Positions 18,351 through 32,690 of a stretch of DNA of 64,000 bases are shown here, one piece after another; the stretch's first letter is position 1; each line of letters begins with the position of its first letter. Source of the DNA: Anaerohalosphaera lusitana (GTDB taxonomy: Bacteria > Planctomycetota > Phycisphaerae > Sedimentisphaerales > Anaerohalosphaeraceae); the NCBI RefSeq assembly GCF_002007645.1, contig NZ_CP019791.1, forward strand, positions 2,542,001 through 2,606,000. Reading direction: 5' to 3'. The notes under the pieces are model-generated. The model was not told the origin of the DNA, did no database searches, and saw nothing but the letters and a program-made list of their open reading frames with translations. Both the position numbers and the translations under genes were made by a program.

Positions 18351-18382
18351 ATCATTGGCCAGTCATTTGACAGGTAGGTGTG

Positions 18383-20020
18383 ATGCTTGATGCCGTTAAA
18401 AAATGGATCTATAAGGGGCTTCGAATTGTCGGTTTGAAGCCCCTTTCGATTGCTGAGAAGTCCCGGATCATGTTCGGCGGGGCGGTGATCCTGATCCTTA
18501 CGGTGGCACTGTTGATACCCTATTTCTGGATGGGCAAGCTGATCGAGAAGAATGCGCTGGATGCGGGCAGGGCTGTTGCGGATACGGTTTATGAGCGACA
18601 CTTCCAGATGGGTGAGGGCCAGATCGAAGGGCTTCCGGCGCTGGGGAGCGGGGGAAGGCTGCAGCAGAAGGATGATTTTGCTGTCAAGTGGCTTCGGCTT
18701 GAAGGCGGGGGCGATATTGTTAAGGATGATATGCCCGAACGCCACTATGAGGTTTTGACCGAATTGACGGCTGAGGAGGACGGGATGGATGAGGAGTCGT
18801 GGACGAGCACGGAGGGTGAGGCCGCCCAGAACAACTATGTCAAAATTGTACGTGCGAATGACGCATGCATCAGATGTCACAATCCTGACGGCTCGGGTTC
18901 GGCATTCAATCGTAATCAGGTCGTAGGTGCGATTATCGCCAGCACCCCCGCCCGAGAGCTGGCGAAAACGCAGTTGATGAATACGGTTGCAATAATAATT
19001 GCGGGTTTGCTTGCCGGTGCCGCGGCGGTGGTTGCGTTTTACGCGATCGCACAGCGGATAATTTTGCGGCCGATACGTCAGCTTCGTGCCCTGGTGAACA
19101 ATATTGCGGACGGTAATTTCGATGCAAGAAGTTCGATCAGGACGGGTGATGAATACGAAAAACTAGCCAATGCTTTCAACCATATGCTGGACGTTCTACA
19201 GGAATCGCAGGAGAAACTACGTCACGCCAATGAAGAGCTGGATAACAAGATAGCGGAGCTTTCCGAACGTAATATCGAGCTGTATAAAGCGAATAAACTC
19301 AAGAGTGAATTTTTGGCAAACATGAGTCATGAATTCAGGACGCCTTTGAATGCGATAATTGGATTCGCTCAGTTGCTGCATGATCGGGCTGGGGCGGATG
19401 CCGAGAAGATGAAACGCTATGCTGAGAATATACTGACCAGCGGGAAATCGCTGCTCAGCATGATAAACGATCTTCTGGATCTGGCGAAAGCGGAAGCGGG
19501 CAAGATGATCCTGCACGTCGGAAAGGTCAATGTGCAGGAGCTTTGTCAGGGGCTGGCGGCGTTCTTTTCACCGATGACCGAACAGAAATCCATTAAGCTG
19601 AAGGTAGAGCCTTCTGAGGATGTGCCTCTGGTTACTACTGACGCCGGCAAGGTGCAGCAGATACTTTACAATTTTTTGAGTAACGCGATCAAGTTTACAC
19701 CCGAGGGGGGCAGAATAGTTATTTCAGCGAAGATGATCGGCGAAAAGAAGGTGCGGCTGACGGTCAGTGACAGTGGGTGCGGAATAGCGGAGGCTCAGCA
19801 GGAGAATATTTTTGAGAAGTTCCGGCAGCTTGACGGATCGCTGACCAGGCAGGGTGAGGGCACGGGGCTTGGCTTAGCAATATGCAAGGAGCTTAGCGGT
19901 CTTCTGGCAGGCCAGGTTTCGGTAGAGAGCGAGTTAGGCGAGGGGGCAGCGTTCCATCTGGACATCCCTGTGGCATTGAGGGAAAAGAAACCACAGCAGC
20001 AGCCGAGTATAGACAGCTAA
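18383..20020 (+). CDS. Sensor histidine kinase with haem-motif periplasmic domain
   Basis: 545 residues. Transmembrane helices lie at about 31-50 and 199-222. The periplasmic segment resembles the DUF3365/Tll0287-like sensor family and carries a CxxCH motif (Cys162, Cys165, His166), which fits covalent c-type haem. Then come HAMP (about 223-275), a coiled coil, HisKA with 'MSHEFRTPLN' (His316) and a GHKL ATPase ('NFLSNAIKFT', 'DSGCGIAE', 'GEGTGLGLAI'). It should sense a redox or gas signal and phosphorylate an unknown regulator; none is adjacent. It lies 32 bases after aspS. GTG 18380 directly before the ATG is an alternative start. Confidence 0.9.
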   Translation: MLDAVKKWIYKGLRIVGLKPLSIAEKSRIMFGGAVILILTVALLIPYFWMGKLIEKNALDAGRAVADTVYERHFQMGEGQIEGLPALGSGGRLQQKDDFAVKWLRLEGGGDIVKDDMPERHYEVLTELTAEEDGMDEESWTSTEGEAAQNNYVKIVRANDACIRCHNPDGSGSAFNRNQVVGAIIASTPARELAKTQLMNTVAIIIAGLLAGAAAVVAFYAIAQRIILRPIRQLRALVNNIADGNFDARSSIRTGDEYEKLANAFNHMLDVLQESQEKLRHANEELDNKIAELSERNIELYKANKLKSEFLANMSHEFRTPLNAIIGFAQLLHDRAGADAEKMKRYAENILTSGKSLLSMINDLLDLAKAEAGKMILHVGKVNVQELCQGLAAFFSPMTEQKSIKLKVEPSEDVPLVTTDAGKVQQILYNFLSNAIKFTPEGGRIVISAKMIGEKKVRLTVSDSGCGIAEAQQENIFEKFRQLDGSLTRQGEGTGLGLAICKELSGLLAGQVSVESELGEGAAFHLDIPVALREKKPQQQPSIDS

Positions 20021-20070: not shown

Positions 20071-20102
20071 TTCTCATATGTGAGAATCTCTTCTCACATG
20101 TG
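20071..20102. repeat. Operator-like direct and inverted repeat, candidate enhancer site
   Basis: TTCTCATATGTG (20071-20082) recurs as TTCTCACATGTG (20091-20102), 20 bp apart. The block also forms a dyad: ATGTGAGAA (20078-20086), loop TCTC, TTCTCACAT (20091-20099), extendable to 12 pairs. It lies about 180-200 bp upstream of the sigma-54 promoter at 20279, the usual distance for an activator binding site. The rest of 20021-20385 holds no gene. Confidence 0.55.
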
Positions 20103-20278
20103 CAAAGCCATTTTGTTGTGCGAAGATTCTGCGGACAAAGAATAAATGGCCATTTCCATAAAAACTATTAAGACGTACTAATTATTTGTCGAGCTTAGGC
20201 GGTTTTTGCCTTTGGGAACGGTCGTTCAAGTCTCGATGTATTTTGGGGGCATTTCTTTCGATTTTAGCTGTGGCGTTC

Positions 20279-20293
20279 TGGCACGGAGCTTGC
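20279..20293 (+). promoter_or_regulatory. Sigma-54 (RpoN) promoter
   Basis: TGGCACG-GAGC-TTGC: the -24 GG is at 20280-20281 and the -12 GC at 20292-20293, separated by exactly ten bases. All consensus positions are met. Transcription should begin near 20305, about 80 bases before the 20386 gene. Confidence 0.8.
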
Positions 20294-20385
20294 GTTTATG
20301 TAATGGCGTCTGATAACGGAGAGGTCAGACAGTTTACGTGAGAGAGTGAAGGTTAGTGCTATCAGTTTTTTGGGAAGGAAAAGTG

Positions 20386-20739
20386 ATGTTGAAATCTGCC
20401 TTAAGTACGATGCCGGTCAGCAGCGCAAGCAGGGTTGGGGATGAAGTTGTCAACGAATGCGATTTTGATGTGGTCGTTCAGATGCACATGCCTCTTTTAG
20501 CGGAGCTGGTTGGGGAATTTGAGAGCATGTGTCCCTGCAGGATATGCCGAGATGATCTTATGAGGGTTGCGGTGGTGAGTTTTCGTAATTCTGTCGAGGC
20601 TTACGAGTTCTGCACCGATGTGGATTACTGGGAATTCTGCAAGCCTGAAGTATCACAGTGCCTTGCGGATGCGGTTCGGTATGCCCTGTATGTAAATAGT
20701 TGTGATGCTGAGAAAGATTGCGGGAGAGTGGTATGGTAG
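20386..20739 (+). CDS. Small protein resembling a degenerate sigma-factor region 2
   Basis: 117 residues, cysteine-rich (eight Cys), with no transmembrane segment. Residues 35-100 can be laid without gaps on residues 41-106 of the sigma factor encoded next. Shared positions include Pro-Leu ('MPLLAEL' versus 'LPLVRSI'), the Asp-Asp pair (56-57 versus 62-63), V-x-V, Tyr73, Val79, Asp95 and Arg98. Basic residues of the sigma promoter-contact region ('FSTYARSRIKG') are replaced ('YWEFCKPEVSQ'), and regions 3 and 4 are absent. It may bind core polymerase or compete with the sigma factor; this is inference. GGAAGG precedes the ATG. It overlaps the sigma gene by 7 bases, both downstream of the sigma-54 promoter. 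Confidence 0.7.
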   Translation: MLKSALSTMPVSSASRVGDEVVNECDFDVVVQMHMPLLAELVGEFESMCPCRICRDDLMRVAVVSFRNSVEAYEFCTDVDYWEFCKPEVSQCLADAVRYALYVNSCDAEKDCGRVVW

Positions 20740-21533
20740 CTGTCAAATCGATTAAAGAATCAAAATCGGATAAGCAGAACAAGTGCGGTTTTTTTGAGAA
20801 GGAAGGCGGACAGTTAGGTTTGGACGAGCGGAATGAGCTTCTGAAAAAGTTTCTGCCGCTGGTAAGAAGTATTGCTGCAAAAGTTTCGAGCTCGACCAGT
20901 TCGAATGTTGAATTCGATGACATGGTGAGCGTTGGCGTATTTGGTCTTATGAGGGCGATCGACAATTATGATCCGTCTCGTGAGGTTCACTTCAGCACTT
21001 ATGCAAGGTCGCGGATCAAGGGTGCGATGCTGGATGAGCTTCGGCAGAGCGACTGGATACCGAGGCACACTCGAAGGCAGGTTAACAAATATAAGCGGGC
21101 GAAGTCGAAGCTAGTGGTTGATCTCGGACGTGAGCCGAAACAGCCTGAAATAGCGGCAGAGCTCGGCAAGACGATGGAGGAGTTCAGGAAATGGCAGTAT
21201 CATCTTGAAACGACGAGTCTTGTGTCGCTGGATTCTTTGAGCGGGGGCAGTGATGACGAAGACGAGAAGCTGGGTTGGCTGGCTGATCCAGGCGGTTATG
21301 ATCCTTCTATGCCTGTGCAGCAGGAGGATTCGAGGAACTATCTGACCAAGAGTCTGGGCAAGATCGAACGTCTGATCATAAAGCTTTATTACTACGAACA
21401 GCTTACAATGAGGGAGGTGGGCAGTATCCTGAAGATATCTGAGTCGCGGGTTTCGCAGATGCACAGTGACATTCTTGAAAGGCTGCGAGAACGGCTTGGC
21501 AGTAACGAGGAGTTCTATCACCTCGCCAGCTAG
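20733..21533 (+). CDS. FliA/WhiG-family RNA polymerase sigma factor (sigma-28 type)
   Basis: 266 residues. Region 2 ('VEFDDMVSVGVFGLMRAIDNYDP' in two overlapping halves, then 'HFSTYARSRIKGAMLDELR'), region 3 (about 110-165) and region 4 ('LTMREVGSILKISESRVSQMHSDIL' read across residues 225-249) are all present in the FliA/WhiG order. Such factors direct flagellar, chemotaxis or developmental genes. ATG 20733 with GGGAG is preferred to the TTG at 20718. Transcription probably comes from the sigma-54 promoter, giving a sigma-54 to sigma-28 cascade as in many flagellar systems. No flagellar structural gene is in the window. Confidence 0.9.
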   Translation: MVAVKSIKESKSDKQNKCGFFEKEGGQLGLDERNELLKKFLPLVRSIAAKVSSSTSSNVEFDDMVSVGVFGLMRAIDNYDPSREVHFSTYARSRIKGAMLDELRQSDWIPRHTRRQVNKYKRAKSKLVVDLGREPKQPEIAAELGKTMEEFRKWQYHLETTSLVSLDSLSGGSDDEDEKLGWLADPGGYDPSMPVQQEDSRNYLTKSLGKIERLIIKLYYYEQLTMREVGSILKISESRVSQMHSDILERLRERLGSNEEFYHLAS

Positions 21534-25026: not shown

Positions 25027-26211
25027 ATGGAAAACAACGAGTTGAAAGCTTTTACAAAGCAGAATACGCAGGTTCGGGCAGGTGAAATATTACGCGCACT
25101 TTGTGACAGGCGTGAAATACGTCTGTTTCGATGCACCGTTATAGGGGAGCTGGACGCCAATAAGCTGCTTGACCCTGAAGGTGAATACAATTGTGACGAT
25201 CTGTCCGTTGACCGGCCAGCCTTCCATGCATGCCTTCGATTTGAACAGAAGATCCATTTCAATAGCTGCAAGTTTCTCGAAAACGTATGTTTTGCTTCTC
25301 CGTGGGACACTCCAAAGGCACTGAAAGCCGTTTTTGCTGGGGACGTAGTATTTAATTCATCCATTTTCTGCGGACAGGCTTTATTCGCGAATGCGACTTT
25401 CAAACAGTTGGCCGGCTTTGACGGTTGTGAATTCCAGAAGGTTACAGCTTTTCGCAATTCGTTGTTCGAATCGAGGGCGATGTTCCGAACTGCGCACTTC
25501 GCAGGATATGGGCTTTTCAGCGGGGCTCGTTTTGGGGGTGACAGCAGGTTTACGAATACCTGTTTCGGCAAAGGTGCGAATTTTTCGAAGACGAAGTTCT
25601 GCACCGCGGTGGACTTTGCCGGTGTGTATGCGGAAAGTCGAGCCATACCCATTTTCGAGGATGTAGAATTCACGCGTAAGGGGCGTGGTGACGATGAGAC
25701 CTTCTGGCGTTTTATCAAGCAGGCGTCACAGGAGGCGGGCTATTATAGAATGGCCGGCGAGTGCTTCTACAAGGAGCGCTGCGCGCATTTATGGAAGAAG
25801 TTCAGAGGTCCGGATGATGAGGTTGAACGCGGCAAACGCATTGCGGTGCGGTTACTGAGAGGTTTGCAGATACTGCCGGAGCTTGTATTTGGTAGACTGC
25901 TTTTCGGTTATGGGGAAAGGCCTATACGGGTGCTGATCGCAGGTGCGATAGTCATTATAGCTTGCGGAATCTTTTATGAGTCGCCATTGGCCGATCTTTC
26001 GGGCAGACTGGCTACTGAGTCAGGGCATTATTCTCTGGTTGACGGCCTCTATTTCAGCGTGACGACGTTTACAACGGTAGGATTTGGAGATATACATCCT
26101 GTAGAGACTCATCTTCTTACTCGTTTTGTGGTGATGCTCGAGGCAATGACCGGGGCGGGTTTGACGGCGCTGTTTATTGTGGCACTGTCAAAGCGGTATT
26201 CCAGGGGGTAG
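25027..26211 (+). CDS. Pentapeptide-repeat protein fused to a two-helix potassium channel
   Basis: 394 residues. Residues 109-197 show phenylalanines in an exact alternation of five- and six-residue steps (an 11-residue period, eight units), the pattern of Pentapeptide_3-type beta-helices. Earlier copies lie at 78-89. After a cytoplasmic linker come a transmembrane helix (about 299-318), the pore loop with selectivity filter 'TTVGFGD' (349-355) and a second helix (about 363-388). The C-terminus thus looks like an Ion_trans_2 K+ channel with a cytoplasmic N-terminal beta-helix in place of the usual RCK domain. ATG 25027 is chosen; an in-frame TTG at 25018 overlaps the upstream stop. The 3' end overlaps the convergent PAS gene by 38 bases. 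Confidence 0.85.
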   Translation: MENNELKAFTKQNTQVRAGEILRALCDRREIRLFRCTVIGELDANKLLDPEGEYNCDDLSVDRPAFHACLRFEQKIHFNSCKFLENVCFASPWDTPKALKAVFAGDVVFNSSIFCGQALFANATFKQLAGFDGCEFQKVTAFRNSLFESRAMFRTAHFAGYGLFSGARFGGDSRFTNTCFGKGANFSKTKFCTAVDFAGVYAESRAIPIFEDVEFTRKGRGDDETFWRFIKQASQEAGYYRMAGECFYKERCAHLWKKFRGPDDEVERGKRIAVRLLRGLQILPELVFGRLLFGYGERPIRVLIAGAIVIIACGIFYESPLADLSGRLATESGHYSLVDGLYFSVTTFTTVGFGDIHPVETHLLTRFVVMLEAMTGAGLTALFIVALSKRYSRG

Positions 26212-26563
26212 AAGCTTTGTGGCGGTGTTTGCTTAGTCTGCAGACGAGGAGATCGGGTCGGTTTTTGTCAGCGGCGGCCGGGATTATGGCGCGGTCTTCA
26301 TGTAGCCACTTGTAGCGACCATCAGCGCATCTGAGTCGATATTTTATGCAAGGCAAGGTTTCACTTTTGCAGGTTTGCGTGTCATATTGTGCATTAAGAC
26401 GGTCGGCATCTGCAGGATGCATAAGTGAATAAAACCATCCGGGTCCCTGCCCTTTGAGATGGGCGGCGTCGTAACCTGTCAACAGTTTTACTTCAGGGGC
26501 AGCATGCCTGAAGGCATAGGTCTTAAGGTCCACTGCAAGTACACATGATATACTATCGATCAT
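26174..26563 (-). CDS. Stand-alone PAS-domain protein
   Basis: 129 residues, essentially one PAS fold: 'ISCVLAVDLKTYAFRHAAPE', 'LLTGYDAAHL', 'WFYSLMHPADADRL' and 'YRLRCADGRYKWLHED', the PAS_3 pattern. There is no output domain. It may be a small ligand or partner-binding sensor. An AGGGA site lies 9 bases before the ATG. Convergent with the channel gene. Confidence 0.7.
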   Translation of the reverse strand: MIDSISCVLAVDLKTYAFRHAAPEVKLLTGYDAAHLKGQGPGWFYSLMHPADADRLNAQYDTQTCKSETLPCIKYRLRCADGRYKWLHEDRAIIPAAADKNRPDLLVCRLSKHRHKASTPWNTALTVPQ

Positions 26564-26861: not shown

Positions 26862-27308
26862 ATGAAGGACAACGTAACCATCATAGCAGTGCAGAGAGAT
26901 GTCGATGAGCTGGAATCTTTGCGTAAGGGCCTGCATCGTGCTGGTATCGCGAACGAGGTCAAACATTTTGGGGAAATAAGCAAAGCGGAAAACTTTTTCG
27001 ATTCGCTTGGCGATTCTGAGGGGGCTCATCCGGGGGCGTGCTATCTGCTTCTTGTAGACGCTGAAGGAGCAAACGGCGAGGCTGAAGATTTCATTGCGAA
27101 GCTTAAGCAAAGCGCTGCTTTGAAACGTATGCCGATCCTGGTTCTTTCAACTGAGGATGACGAAGCGGCTACCGAGAAATGGCATTCGATGGGCTGCAGT
27201 ATCTACCTATCAAAACCGTCATCTCCGGCCGATCTGATTGATGCCATACATAAACTGGGGTTGTTCCTTGGGACAGTTGAGATACCTCAGGTTGGCAGTA
27301 CTTCGTAA
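26862..27308 (+). CDS. Response-regulator receiver protein (single domain, divergent)
   Basis: 148 residues of CheY-like fold: 'VTIIAVQRDVDELESL', 'YLLLVDAEGANG' with the likely phospho-acceptor Asp, 'MPILVLSTEDDE' and 'SIYLSKPSSPADLIDAI' with the conserved Lys. The N-terminal acidic pair is altered (VQRD in place of DD), so metal binding or phosphorylation may be weakened. There is no output domain. It precedes the giant sensor kinase by 92 bases and could belong to the same pathway. Start ATG 26862 has a GGCGAGGAG-type site. Confidence 0.8.
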   Translation: MKDNVTIIAVQRDVDELESLRKGLHRAGIANEVKHFGEISKAENFFDSLGDSEGAHPGACYLLLVDAEGANGEAEDFIAKLKQSAALKRMPILVLSTEDDEAATEKWHSMGCSIYLSKPSSPADLIDAIHKLGLFLGTVEIPQVGSTS

Positions 27309-27400: not shown

Positions 27401-30400
27401 ATGGCGTATCTGGGGGCGAAGCCGCATGTGATCCTTATCGTCGAGGATGATCGATTACTTGCACGGCTTATGGAAAAACGCTTGCATTCGGCCGGCCATA
27501 AGGTAAAGGCGGTTTACAGCGGCAAGAGTGCGATTCAATATGTTGAGAGCAATCTGAGTAAAAAACTGTTCATGATTGCAGATTATCAACTCGGTGATAT
27601 GACGGCGAGCCAACTTGTCTGCAAGCTGAGTGCGATAAATTCTGATGTTCCTTTTATCGTAGCCACGGGGCAAGGGAGTGAGCAGGTCGCGGTCGAAATG
27701 ATGAAGCTTGGGGCGCTTGACTATCTTATCAAAGACGGTACTTTTCTCGACCTTTTGCCGCTGGTTGTAAGTCAGGGCATTAGAAATGTTGAGCTGGAGG
27801 GCAAGCTGGCTTCAACCGAGCAGGCGCTTCGCCAGGAGAAGACTCATCTTTTGAATAATATACCCGACCTTGTATTTCAAATCGACAGGGAAGGGTTGCT
27901 GAGGTCCTTGAATCCTGCGATGTTCAAAAAACTCGGGTACAGTTCCGAGGAACTGAGCGGGAAGTGCTTGTTTGAATTCTGTGATCCGCAGAGCCAAAAA
28001 GGTGTTCGGGCGGATTATGCATCGGTCATGGAAGGAAGTCAGCTTAGTTCACACATCTTACGACTGGTTGACAAGGCTGGGAGCACGAAGTGGCTTGAAG
28101 GTAATGTCGTACCGATAAGGGATGAGCCCGAGGGCGGCATTTCGGGTGCAAGTGCAATTTATCATGATATTACTGCACAGAAGCTTGCGTCTGAGGCCCT
28201 GAGGGAGGCAGAGCAGAGATACCGCCTGCTTGTTGAAAACTCGCCTACGCTGGTTGTGGAGCTTGATAACAATAACAATCGCGTGAGGCTGAACAGCAAA
28301 GCGCATGATTTTTTCGGCGTACAAAATGCTGGGGATATTTCGGGCCGAGAGCTTCTGGAGAAGATGCCGGAAAGCTGGCACGGTCCACTGCTGGAAGCTG
28401 TCAAGAAGGCTCCTGAGGGGATCTCAAAAAGAATGACCCTTCCGTGGTACGGAAAAAATAACTCTAAGCAGTGGTATGAACTCGATGTATCACCGCTGGC
28501 GGGCGCGGAAGGCGCGGCCAGCAAGACCCTCATTACGGCTTGGAACGTCACGCACCGCGTCAGCAAAGAAATCGAATATGCTGAGTCTTTGAGGGCTCAG
28601 CATAAATCTGCAAGAGAGGCCAAGATACTTCAGCAGATAGCGTTTTCAGTCGACCTTAACAGACCCGATGCGAGCGAAGGGGTTCTAGACCTGTCAACAA
28701 AGCTTCTCTGTCGTCATCTGGGAGCGGCAGCCGGCGTTGGTTATTTTTTCGACGACAACGGTTTTATGATACGTGCCGGACAAAAGGGCAGCATACCCTT
28801 GAATGCCCTGGAGAGGCTGGACGATCATATTTGCAGCCGTCGCATGGTTGGCAAGCTGGCCCGGACGCGAGGTCCGCGGCTGGTGTCAAATCTTCACCTG
28901 GTGCCTGGCGATGCCGGTGATATCGAATATAGAGGACGATCGGGGCTTTCGACATGTATATTGCCATTGAGACACGGGCGAAGGGTACAGGGAGCAATTC
29001 TGCTGGTTGCAGGGCATAAGGAGCTGACCTCTCACACCGACTTTCTGAGATCAGCGGCAGACTGTATTGGCATTACAATTGCTAACAGCAGATCCTATCA
29101 AAAGGCCAAGAAACAGTTAAGCAATATAGGTTCATCGGGCGAGACTATGGTTGACGAAAGCCGGAGTCGGTTTGATGACAGTCGGAACCCTGATGAGCTT
29201 GTGTCAGTCATCGCCTCGGGCGTGCATGCTGTCAAGGCGGAGGGCGGGATCGTTCTTCTTTACGACAAGAAGCGAGATGTGTTGGAAAGCGCTGCCAATT
29301 ATAGCAAAGGTGACCAGGGGATGAACGTGGTAATGCTTTCGCGGCACAATAATGCTGTCTGGCAATGCTATGAAGCGGGTAAACCTGAATTGCATGTGAA
29401 GGACCAGGACAATACACAGGTACTGCCTAGTGCTGTGAGACGACTTGCTGACAGTTCCGTTCTGATAATGCCGCTGAAAGACGGTAATGAAAACGTCGGA
29501 GTTTTTATCTTGCTGGACGTTGCCGCGGAATTTTATGATTCGGCAATGTATATACTTGGAGCTTTTACCAAGCTGGCGATCCAAGCCATACAGAATAGAA
29601 GGCTGTTTTCCAGGGCCGAGTCTTTTCGCGAAAATATCACAAGCATAAGGGATTGTGCCAGAAGGATGGAGCGTTCCACGGATACCGCTGAAATACTGCG
29701 ATCCTTTAGCGATACCGCGAGGATAGCTGTTAAGGCATCAATAGCGGGTGCGGCAACATATTCACATGCAGAAGGGAAGTATACTGCCGGAGAATATGCC
29801 TGTAAATTGAAGGACGGTCGCCCGAGTTCGAAGCTTGAAGGTTTGTTAAATCAGGGCAAGTATTTCCGAAAGGTGAGTAATGAAGCCCATGTGATTTCAG
29901 ATCCTGAAATTGCGATGCATCTGTTTGGAAATGAAGGTGATTATGGTGATTGTATTTGTGCTCCGGTCACTTATTCAGATGATATCCTGGGTGTGCTGCT
30001 GCTGTGTTTTGAGAATGGTACAATTGTTAATCGGCAGGACATAATGTTGGCCGAGGAGACTGCAAGGCTGCTGGCGGTCACGCTAAACAGTCTGCGTCTG
30101 AACCGACGCCTTTTGGCATCGGAGAGACTTAAGGACATAATCCTGCACACTGTTCACGAGCCGCTTTTGGTGATCGATCTCAAAGGAATGGTTGTCACTG
30201 TAAATGATGCCGCTTCCAAACTTTTCGGCAAGAGCAGGGACGCTTTCGAGAATCTCTATTATGCAGAAGTGCCTGGGTTCGACACGGCGCTCGCCAAGCC
30301 TGTGAAGGATTGGCTGAAGGGTGCAAATGAGGAAGGGCAGTCTCATGGGATTGCGAATGACTATGACGACAATGAGCTATTTCTGGCATTAGAGAGCAGA

Positions 30401-31267
30401 ACGATTACGATCGAGAACACTCGCTGTCTGCTTGTGTCGATCACTGACATGACACAGCAGCGTAAAATGAATGAGACGCTAGAGCATAAAGATAAGCTTT
30501 CCAGCCTGGGGCGCATGGCCGCACAAATTGCCCACGAGGTCGGAAATCCTCTCGCGTTGATATCGAGCAGAATACAAAGGCTGACAGAGAAGGAAGAGAT
30601 CGATAAGAATGATCTTGCTGGCGTGTTGCCTCATGTCGATCGAATATCCGGGCTTATAAAACGCATGTCAGACCTGGGGCGTCCAAACGTTCCGGCATTT
30701 GATCGGTGCAAGCTAAGTTCGATAGTAAATAATGTGATCACTTTGGCCGGCTACACCGATATGTTTGAGAAGGTAGAGTTGAAAACAGTGATTGTTGACG
30801 AGTCTCCTGTTGTTGAGTGTGATGCGGGCAAGGTTACTCAGATCCTTCTGAATCTTCTTATGAATGCAGCTCAGGCATGTGAGATGGATGGCGAGGTGAC
30901 AGTGGGGGTCAAGTACCGCAGGCTGCCTATCGAGGAAGCTGATCGTGAGCGGTTTGAGGATTTTGCGGTTATTACTGTCAGCGACAACGGAAAGGGGATG
31001 ACTGAGGAAACTCAGGAGCACATCTTCGAGCCGTTCTATACCCAAAGACAAGATGGGGCGGGTCTGGGGCTTTCGGTGTCGATGTCTATAATGCGTCAGC
31101 ACCAAGGATGGATAAGCGTGGAAAGCACACTTGGGAAGGGGGCAGTGTTTACGCTCTTTTTGCCCATGAAGCAAAATGACCGCGAAAAGGTTGAGGGTGG
31201 AAGTAAACGCCGAATCGGTGCGATCTGTTACGAAAGTAAGACGAGAGAACTCAATCAGAGAAATTGA
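27401..31267 (+). CDS. Large multidomain sensor histidine kinase (receiver-PAS-PAS-GAF-PAS-HisKA-HATPase)
   Basis: 1288 residues, no transmembrane helix, so cytoplasmic. Order: an N-terminal receiver ('ILIVEDD', phospho-Asp61 in 'MIADYQLGD', 'LDYLIKDG'), PAS (about 145-265), PAS (about 270-395), GAF-like domains (about 410-900), PAS (about 905-1025), HisKA with 'LGRMAAQIAHEVGNPLALI' (His1045) and a GHKL ATPase ('LLNLLMNAAQA', 'DNGKGMTEE', 'GAGLGLSVS'). The kinase core is NtrB-like. It ends one base before the sigma-54 activator gene, its obvious partner. The signal is unknown; several stacked sensor domains suggest integration of cytoplasmic cues. Confidence 0.9.
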   Translation: MAYLGAKPHVILIVEDDRLLARLMEKRLHSAGHKVKAVYSGKSAIQYVESNLSKKLFMIADYQLGDMTASQLVCKLSAINSDVPFIVATGQGSEQVAVEMMKLGALDYLIKDGTFLDLLPLVVSQGIRNVELEGKLASTEQALRQEKTHLLNNIPDLVFQIDREGLLRSLNPAMFKKLGYSSEELSGKCLFEFCDPQSQKGVRADYASVMEGSQLSSHILRLVDKAGSTKWLEGNVVPIRDEPEGGISGASAIYHDITAQKLASEALREAEQRYRLLVENSPTLVVELDNNNNRVRLNSKAHDFFGVQNAGDISGRELLEKMPESWHGPLLEAVKKAPEGISKRMTLPWYGKNNSKQWYELDVSPLAGAEGAASKTLITAWNVTHRVSKEIEYAESLRAQHKSAREAKILQQIAFSVDLNRPDASEGVLDLSTKLLCRHLGAAAGVGYFFDDNGFMIRAGQKGSIPLNALERLDDHICSRRMVGKLARTRGPRLVSNLHLVPGDAGDIEYRGRSGLSTCILPLRHGRRVQGAILLVAGHKELTSHTDFLRSAADCIGITIANSRSYQKAKKQLSNIGSSGETMVDESRSRFDDSRNPDELVSVIASGVHAVKAEGGIVLLYDKKRDVLESAANYSKGDQGMNVVMLSRHNNAVWQCYEAGKPELHVKDQDNTQVLPSAVRRLADSSVLIMPLKDGNENVGVFILLDVAAEFYDSAMYILGAFTKLAIQAIQNRRLFSRAESFRENITSIRDCARRMERSTDTAEILRSFSDTARIAVKASIAGAATYSHAEGKYTAGEYACKLKDGRPSSKLEGLLNQGKYFRKVSNEAHVISDPEIAMHLFGNEGDYGDCICAPVTYSDDILGVLLLCFENGTIVNRQDIMLAEETARLLAVTLNSLRLNRRLLASERLKDIILHTVHEPLLVIDLKGMVVTVNDAASKLFGKSRDAFENLYYAEVPGFDTALAKPVKDWLKGANEEGQSHGIANDYDDNELFLALESRTITIENTRCLLVSITDMTQQRKMNETLEHKDKLSSLGRMAAQIAHEVGNPLALISSRIQRLTEKEEIDKNDLAGVLPHVDRISGLIKRMSDLGRPNVPAFDRCKLSSIVNNVITLAGYTDMFEKVELKTVIVDESPVVECDAGKVTQILLNLLMNAAQACEMDGEVTVGVKYRRLPIEEADRERFEDFAVITVSDNGKGMTEETQEHIFEPFYTQRQDGAGLGLSVSMSIMRQHQGWISVESTLGKGAVFTLFLPMKQNDREKVEGGSKRRIGAICYESKTRELNQRN

Positions 31268-31268
31268 T

Positions 31269-32690
31269 ATGGAACGCATTCTAATCGTGGATGATGATTC
31301 AGGTATTCGCTCTGAACTGGTCAGTATAGTCAGCAGTCCTGGCAGAGAGATCATCGAGGCCTCGGATGGATCAGAGGCATTGCAAGTGCTTGAGAGCGAG
31401 ATGTTTGACCTCATTTTGTCCGATGTTCGCATGCCTGGGATGGATGGGTTCGAACTTCTTGCAGAGATTCGTCAGAGGTGGACGAATCTGCCGGTGATCA
31501 TAATCACCGCCTTTGCGTCTACCGACACGGCTGTGCAGGCATTGCGGGGAGGAGCCTATGATTACATCACCAAGCCGTTTTCAATAGATGATATTCGTAA
31601 TATTGTTAGCCATGCGCTGGAGGCAAATCGCCTGTTCAATGAGGTCAGCTACCTGAAAGGCAGGCTGGGCGAAAGGTATTCGATGGACAATATCATCGGT
31701 CAGTGTCCCGCGATGCAAAAAGTTTTCGATACCATAATGCGTGTGGCGAAGGCGCCGTGCAACATTCTTATCACCGGCGAAAGTGGAACGGGTAAGGATC
31801 TGGCTGCGCAGGCAATACATGAGTACAGTTCCAGAAGTCAGAATCATCTTGTGACCATAGATTGCGGGAGCATCCCCGAGGGGTTGCTGGAGTCCGAGCT
31901 ATTTGGACACGTAAAAGGCGCCTTTACAGGGGCCGTGAGCGAAAAAGAGGGGCTGGTGCAGAGCGCTAACGGGGGAACAATATTTCTGGATGAGATCGGT
32001 GACATGCCGTTATCTCTTCAGGTTAAGCTTCTGCGACTGATTCAGAACCGACATGTTCAGAAGGTCGGCAGCACAAAGCGGGAGCAAGTTGACGTGCGGA
32101 TCCTTGCAGCCACCAACGCCAATTTGGCCGAAAAGGTTCGTAACAAGCAGTTCAGGGAGGACCTTTTCTACCGTCTCAATGTAGTTGAGATACACCTGCC
32201 TCCTTTGAGAAGCAGAGGTGGTGATGTTCTGCTGCTGATGTCGTATTTTCTTAAACGGTACTCCGAAGCTTTGGGCAGAGAGGTTTGCAAAGTTGACGAG
32301 AGTGTCAAGCGTGCATTCGGAAAATACCCCTGGCCGGGCAACGTCAGGGAGCTGGAGAATGCTGTAGAAAGGGCTGTGACGCTTTGTGATGGTAGTTTGA
32401 TACGGCTGGAGGATATTCCGGGCAATATTGCACAATGGCAGAATGAAAGCGGGGCGGTGTCAGGTACCCTGTCAGAACGCGTGGACCATTTCGAAAAGCA
32501 ATGCCTGATCGGGGCAATGGAAGCTGAGGAGTTCCATGCAGCAGGAGCCGCTGAGCGATTAGGAATAAGCCTTGCTACGCTCTATCGCAAGCTCAAGAAA
32601 TTCGACATACCGGTCGCCAGTACCGGCATCGTCGAGGTTGAAAGATCAAACACAGGACAGACACAATTCACCAGGGGCTTAAAAAGATAG
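31269..32690 (+). CDS. Sigma-54-dependent response regulator (NtrC family)
   Basis: 473 residues. The receiver (1-120) has Asp8-10, phospho-acceptor Asp52 and Lys102. The AAA+ domain follows, with Walker A 'GESGTGKD' (170-177), GAFTGA (217-222), which contacts sigma-54, and Walker B 'FLDEIG' (239-244). The C-terminal Fis-type helix-turn-helix is 'AAERLGISLATLYRKLKKF'. It activates sigma-54 promoters after phosphorylation, presumably by the adjacent kinase. The sigma-54 promoter at 20279 with its upstream dyad is a plausible but unproven target. ATG 31269 begins the receiver exactly; an in-frame upstream start would overlap the kinase gene. Confidence 0.95.
   Translation: MERILIVDDDSGIRSELVSIVSSPGREIIEASDGSEALQVLESEMFDLILSDVRMPGMDGFELLAEIRQRWTNLPVIIITAFASTDTAVQALRGGAYDYITKPFSIDDIRNIVSHALEANRLFNEVSYLKGRLGERYSMDNIIGQCPAMQKVFDTIMRVAKAPCNILITGESGTGKDLAAQAIHEYSSRSQNHLVTIDCGSIPEGLLESELFGHVKGAFTGAVSEKEGLVQSANGGTIFLDEIGDMPLSLQVKLLRLIQNRHVQKVGSTKREQVDVRILAATNANLAEKVRNKQFREDLFYRLNVVEIHLPPLRSRGGDVLLLMSYFLKRYSEALGREVCKVDESVKRAFGKYPWPGNVRELENAVERAVTLCDGSLIRLEDIPGNIAQWQNESGAVSGTLSERVDHFEKQCLIGAMEAEEFHAAGAAERLGISLATLYRKLKKFDIPVASTGIVEVERSNTGQTQFTRGLKR

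Follow-up and report, generated by a model that had tools for sequence, protein, structure and literature searches.

A stand-alone sigma region-2 protein encoded with a complete FliA/WhiG-type sigma factor in a sigma-54-driven operon of Anaerohalosphaera lusitana

The window, i.e. the whole 64-kb stretch of DNA analysed here, carries two adjacent genes, one for a sigma-like domain and the other for an entire sigma factor:

20386..20739, + strand: 117-aa stand-alone sigma region-2 protein, hereafter region-2-only protein (profile, BLASTP, ortholog, AlphaFold, Foldseek)
20733..21533, + strand: complete FliA/WhiG-type sigma factor of 266 aa with regions 2, 3 and 4 (Pfam, TIGR02479)

The two ORFs share the 7 bases ATGGTAG, an overlap already reported in an earlier interpretation made from the DNA letters (the sequence-only reading). 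The 117-aa ORF is preceded by a plausible ribosome-binding site (GGGAAGGAAAAGTG before its ATG) and displays a coding composition (GC at codon positions of 0.56/0.39/0.53) like that of its neighbours. The partner sigma exceeds the Pfam cut-off for each of Sigma70_r2 (3.9e-17), r3 and r4, and matches TIGR02479 FliA_WhiG with E = 2e-68. Further FliA/WhiG-type sigmas are encoded elsewhere in this genome, beside a FlhA-like, flagellar gene (L078:9876-10667) and beside a MinD/FlhG-like ATPase gene (L074:10245-11126, minus strand).

Two elements lie upstream of the pair:

20279..20294, + strand: sigma-54 (-24/-12) promoter TGGCACGGAGCTTGCG (consensus scan, 1 mismatch)
20071..20106, + strand: putative enhancer made of two tandem dyads 20 bp apart, TTCTCATATGTGAGAA and TTCTCACATGTGCAAA (inverted repeats)

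The promoter is the only site with at most one mismatch on either strand of the window, with 0.9 expected in shuffled sequences. The tandem dyads are located about 190 bp upstream of it and their exact motif occurs in the 4.25-Mb genome as these two copies only. We infer that they are sites for an NtrC-type activator. A histidine kinase gene, whose product has a CxxCH heme-type motif and a HAMP domain, is found just upstream of the pair (18380-20020).

The relationship of the small protein to sigma region 2 is detectable within the locus itself. In a single BLASTP comparison, its residues 30-103 align without gaps to residues 36-109 of the neighbouring sigma (11/74 identities, 35/74 positives, E = 2e-5), with the same +6 offset as the gapless fit of the sequence-only reading. 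The Smith-Waterman score of the two proteins is 61, compared with a mean of 27 +/- 4.1 for shuffled sequences (Z = 8.3), and none of 5000 shuffles of the 117-aa protein reaches the observed value. Taken alone, the protein has no match in Pfam and matches region 2 of the NCBIfam model TIGR02479 FliA_WhiG with E = 0.0023. Since this signal is weak, the assignment to sigma region 2 goes through an unambiguous intermediate, an ortholog found by searching 39 genomes of the same family. It is encoded by G016, a metagenome-assembled genome from another genus (Planctomycetota bacterium isolate CSMAG_1709, DAOVVQ010000014.1). This 127-aa protein is 28% identical to the window protein over region 2 (Z = 21.9), passes Pfam Sigma70_r2 (30.9 bits for a cut-off of 24) and matches TIGR02479 with 2.8e-16. 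A significant profile match, the absence of which would have spoken against the initial proposal, therefore exists. It is thus well supported that the product of the 117-aa ORF is a sigma70 region-2 domain on its own, of FliA/WhiG type.

The gene arrangement is also conserved in G016, where 74 bp separate the region-2-only gene from the downstream ortholog of the window sigma gene. The two partner sigmas share 49% identity (248 bits), other sigmas of the family reaching at most 201 bits. The occurrence of the pair in another planctomycete, suggested as a check by the sequence-only reading, is thus established, and the pair does not lack conservation in relatives. As anticipated, regions 3 and 4 (-35 recognition and beta-flap binding) are missing: the window protein stops just after region 2, and so does its G016 ortholog. 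There is no space for remnants of these regions, since the next gene overlaps by 7 bases in the window or begins 74 bp on in G016. A frameshifted or split sigma is ruled out by the completeness of the partner and by this 74-bp gap. Identity between the two region-2-only genes is 0.47/0.57/0.35 at codon positions 1/2/3, which indicates selection at the protein level; their third positions have diverged as much as those of the partner sigma genes (0.37). Furthermore, a sigma-54 site with 2 mismatches, TGGCATATCGGTTGCG, lies about 60 bp before the G016 operon. The promoter TGGCACGGAGCTTGCG thus has a counterpart, in agreement with the earlier proposal that the pair shares a sigma-54 promoter, and both genomes encode sigma-54. 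One version of the dyad with 3 mismatches, not above chance, occurs about 215-230 bp upstream of the G016 promoter. Behind this same promoter and ahead of the G016 pair lies an ORF for a 176-aa protein (L072:11186-11716) that matches no protein family and is without a homolog in any of the 38 other family genomes, that of the window included.

Moreover, a set of sensor and regulator genes accompanies the pair in both genomes. In the window, it consists of:

26174..26563, - strand: PAS-domain protein (27% identity, E = 1e-11 to L072 1885-2334 of the G016 cassette)
26862..27308, + strand: single-domain response regulator (30% identity, E = 8e-28 to L072 4902-5384 of the G016 cassette)
27401..31267, + strand: Receiver-PAS-GAF hybrid histidine kinase of 1288 aa, domain names read off the sequence (34% identity over 1311 columns to L072 5421-9311 of the G016 cassette)
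31269..32690, + strand: NtrC-family sigma-54 activator with a GAFTGA motif (64% identity to the NtrC gene adjoining the G016 pair)

The cassette precedes the pair in G016 and is located 5-12 kb downstream of it in the window; the histidine kinase at 18380-20020 does not belong to it. Orthologs of the NtrC-family activator (E <= 1e-130) are found in exactly two of the 39 family genomes, which are those with the region-2-only gene. This co-occurrence is supportive but not independent, since both genomes could just have inherited the block from a common ancestor. The presence at both loci of a sigma-54 promoter and the synteny of the sensor module indicate that the pair is part of one regulatory cassette. 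The activator encoded at 31269..32690 probably acts on the window sigma-54 promoter, and we infer that the cassette thereby drives its own region-2-only/sigma operon. In the single-domain receiver of the window, the acidic pocket is partly lost (QRD vs EDD in G016, whose counterpart looks normal), so this receiver may not be phosphorylated.

Structure prediction also points to sigma2. AlphaFold, run as the sequence-only reading had suggested and with the two region-2-only sequences alone, predicts helices at 27-46, 55-72 and 81-103, with a pLDDT of about 70-86 over the block. In Foldseek searches of the PDB, nearly all best matches of this model are sigma2 domains (N-terminal domain of B. subtilis SigE, sigma28, SigA), with a probability of about 1 and E-values from 0.02 upward, none falling below 0.01 because the domain is so small. 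In a second model, built from 23 rows, most helices score a block pLDDT of 94-96, but this model is biased towards a sigma2 answer since the rows include sigmas. Against PDB sequences, the profile of the region-2-only pair retrieves the sigma chains of 6pfj/6pfv best (E = 1e-7 for 6pfv, listed as the S. venezuelae RsiG-WhiG-c-di-GMP complex), followed by FliA, including FliA-FlgM complexes. The predicted fold of the region-2-only proteins is thus the sigma2 helix bundle and not a different one.

The residues kept by the two proteins are not those expected from a sigma factor in decay. Of the 21 region-2 residues on which they agree, eight (His34, Cys49, Glu83, Phe84, Leu93, Ala96, Tyr99 and Ala100, window numbering) are found in none of 51 full-length FliA/WhiG-type sigmas. 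These eight argue for a distinct family rather than for a decaying fragment. Five or six of them lie at region-2 residues 83-100 (regions 2.3-2.4), Leu93 being a mild change, and Glu83 stands where Thr is invariant in the 51 sigmas. Regions 2.3-2.4 melt and read the -10 element (PMC4598750). Hence, the region-2-only proteins look like a distinct family with a rebuilt DNA-facing side and not like a random relic, and the residues shared at 83-100 would fit a new interface rather than DNA melting. The loss of promoter-melting residues claimed by the sequence-only reading is partial: residues of the melting region are changed in both proteins, but each retains Asp95 and Arg98, which full-length sigmas of the FliA/WhiG type conserve and which match Asp and Arg in the 'LDELR' motif of FliA. 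In E. coli these are D81 and R84, which have been implicated in recognizing the -10 element. The region 2.2 signature is nearly unchanged in the G016 protein (DDLVSAGVYGLIEAI vs DDLVSAGIFGLMDAI in WhiG), whereas it is changed in the window protein (DDLMRVAVVSFRNSV; Ser to Arg, both Gly changed, Leu to Phe, Met to Arg). The 117 residues of the window protein also comprise 9 cysteines, some of them in the stretch CPCRIC at 49-54, and its G016 ortholog contains 3; those of the window protein could possibly form a metal or redox site.

That the region-2-only protein is a paralog of FliA/WhiG-type sigmas, encoded in a sigma-54-driven operon with a complete sigma of this type, is well supported. Its precise origin is another matter. 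The G016 protein is about as similar to the window sigma (32/79 identities, 40%) as to canonical WhiG-type sigmas (30/79, and 41% for the best). The two region-2-only proteins cluster together in the tree (100/99), both on long branches. Grouping them with the partner sigma gives p = 0.58 in an AU test that relies on about 80 columns and very long branches, so that derivation from the adjacent sigma is neither supported nor rejected. The sequence-only reading, which saw a duplicated and repurposed sigma domain paired with a FliA-type sigma, is therefore upheld by fold, profile, ortholog and synteny for the repurposed domain and its pairing, and left undecided for the duplication.

The family is rare, being present in two genomes among 161 of the order. 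A scan of the whole collection with the single window protein found no relatives, and a scan with the two-row alignment recovered only G016. No third ortholog was found in the 161 genomes of the order, in 397 of the class at a stricter threshold or, among the matches listed (to ~4e-10), in 294 of the phylum; these samples overlap. Short-frame matches in G031 and G090 come from sigmas truncated where a contig stops. Another family of the order harbors a 126-aa WhiG-type protein (G124 C65; L075:2101-2481, minus strand; WhiG model 1.6e-23) that ends just after region 2 and has altered region-2.4 residues. It is a genuine, independently truncated sigma; with no sigma beside it and a position outside the clade, it was rejected as a further family member. 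In addition, six unannotated phage records (MT839529.1, MT835847.1, LR756511.1 and three more) contain region-2-like matches to the G016 protein with 30-36% identity.

Sigma activity is ordinarily controlled by anti-sigmas or by proteolysis, and the FliA/WhiG class governs flagella and development. In the operon described here, the small protein probably adjusts the activity of its partner sigma. Lacking regions 3 and 4, and with an altered melting surface, it would not initiate transcription on its own, promoter melting being presumably lost; it would work through the protein surfaces of the sigma2 fold. We favor, tentatively and at somewhat short of an even chance, an account in which the protein is a sigma2 mimic that titrates a sigma2-directed regulator. 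The co-produced mimic would occupy an anti-sigma of the FlgM or RsiG kind, or another sigma2-binding factor, and the partner sigma would thereby be freed when the sensor cascade fires, both the target and the sign of the effect being presumed. Titration is favored because anti-sigmas of this sigma class hold sigma2, because the novel residues common to both proteins fall in the segment that melting would no longer require, and because the core-binding signature differs between the two copies. Indeed, RsiG holds WhiG at sigma2 helix 2 (PMC8325347), and FlgM and RseA block the core-binding surfaces of sigma2 (PMC4598750). The conservation of pairing, promoter and sensor module between proteins that are down to 28% identity also counts in favor of a mimic, as does the sigma2 net charge of -8 in the window protein (-1 in its partner, -3 in WhiG and +1 in flagellar FliA of the same genome). 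Other data count against it. No anti-sigma gene was found in either locus, and FlgM-like matches outside the loci are weak (16.9 bits in G000, below the cut-off, and 26.7 bits in G016). The sigma2 of the G016 protein, with a net charge of +2, is not acidic. With two known orthologs only, conserved surfaces are hard to map, and the retention of Asp95 and Arg98 makes some promoter contact possible. The broader statement, that the sensor cascade and sigma-54 co-induce a complete sigma and a sigma2 mimic, which sets sigma activity through a sigma2-binding regulator or through core, seems to us to have an even chance of being right.

Four other explanations can be weighed against titration by a sigma2 mimic. 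The protein could be a brake: bound to the beta' clamp helices by its region 2.2, it would deny sigmas, its partner included, access to core and so generate a self-limiting pulse. The nearly unchanged G016 signature fits this proposal, since sigma binds the beta' coiled coil chiefly through region 2.2 (PMC4598750). However, the window copy has lost the signature, which means that core binding is not conserved between the two proteins, and we regard such a brake as unlikely, though not far-fetched. The alteration of the melting region weighs against an accessory subunit that would join the initiation complex of the partner and help to open or select promoters, as part of a two-part sigma. The gene arrangement is that of SigO-RsoA, with a sigma2-only protein next to a sigma (PMC8103513), and the LDELR-equivalent Asp95 and Arg98 occur in both proteins. 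Nevertheless, the partner, unlike SigO, has a complete region 2 of its own and a second sigma2 would be redundant, which makes this role an improbable, though still live, rival.

The two remaining explanations attribute no role to the protein. A functionless truncated sigma duplicate drifting to loss would account for the fast divergence (28% vs 49% for the partner), for the missing region 2.2 signature of the window copy and for the patchy distribution. Yet the frame is intact in two genera, second codon positions are the most conserved, the eight residues seen in none of the 51 sigmas are shared and the place before the sigma gene is kept; a relic is accordingly improbable. Finally, the ATGGTAG overlap could mean that the ORF chiefly sets the translation of the sigma, its product being incidental. 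The 74 bp between the G016 genes show that overlap coupling is not conserved, and the protein sequence is under selection, so that a mere translational leader is very hard to credit.

The claim that no class of such regulators had been described was too strong, since RsoA and PhyR are both described (PMC8103513). RsoA of B. subtilis is a sigma2-only protein working with SigO and, like the protein studied here, is encoded separately with a sigma factor (PMC8103513). SigO provides the sigma4 part and has no sigma2 of its own, whereas the sigma encoded in the window is complete. The region-2-only protein moreover belongs to the FliA/WhiG type, RsoA being compared by description and not by sequence. 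PhyR, from the general stress response of Alphaproteobacteria, carries a sigma-like domain in which promoter and core contacts are degenerate and which acts by titrating an anti-sigma (PMC8103513, PMC4598750). Here the picture is mixed: both proteins have altered residues in the melting region but retain Asp95 and Arg98, and the region 2.2 signature is missing from the window copy and present in G016. PhyR is ECF-like with sigma2, sigma4 and a fused receiver, whereas the window protein is a sigma2 of 117 aa with no receiver; receivers are separate genes of the cassette and no anti-sigma was found in the locus. WhiG-RsiG-(c-di-GMP) and FliA-FlgM, whose structures head the PDB sequence matches of the region-2-only profile, differ in that complete sigmas are held by anti-sigmas, whereas here an isolated sigma2 comes without a known anti-sigma. 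Literature searches for additional lone sigma2 regulators yielded no other case. The G016 copy, still near a normal sigma2, is a tractable protein for binding work. If the account proposed here is true, this would be a single-domain, cis-encoded regulator of a sigma, as yet undescribed in the FliA/WhiG class, and a piece of a sigma could be recruited as a regulator of that sigma outside SigO-RsoA and PhyR. RsoA and PhyR are precedents, the one for a lone sigma2 and the other for sigma mimicry, and what is new here is the complete partner sigma and the FliA/WhiG ancestry.
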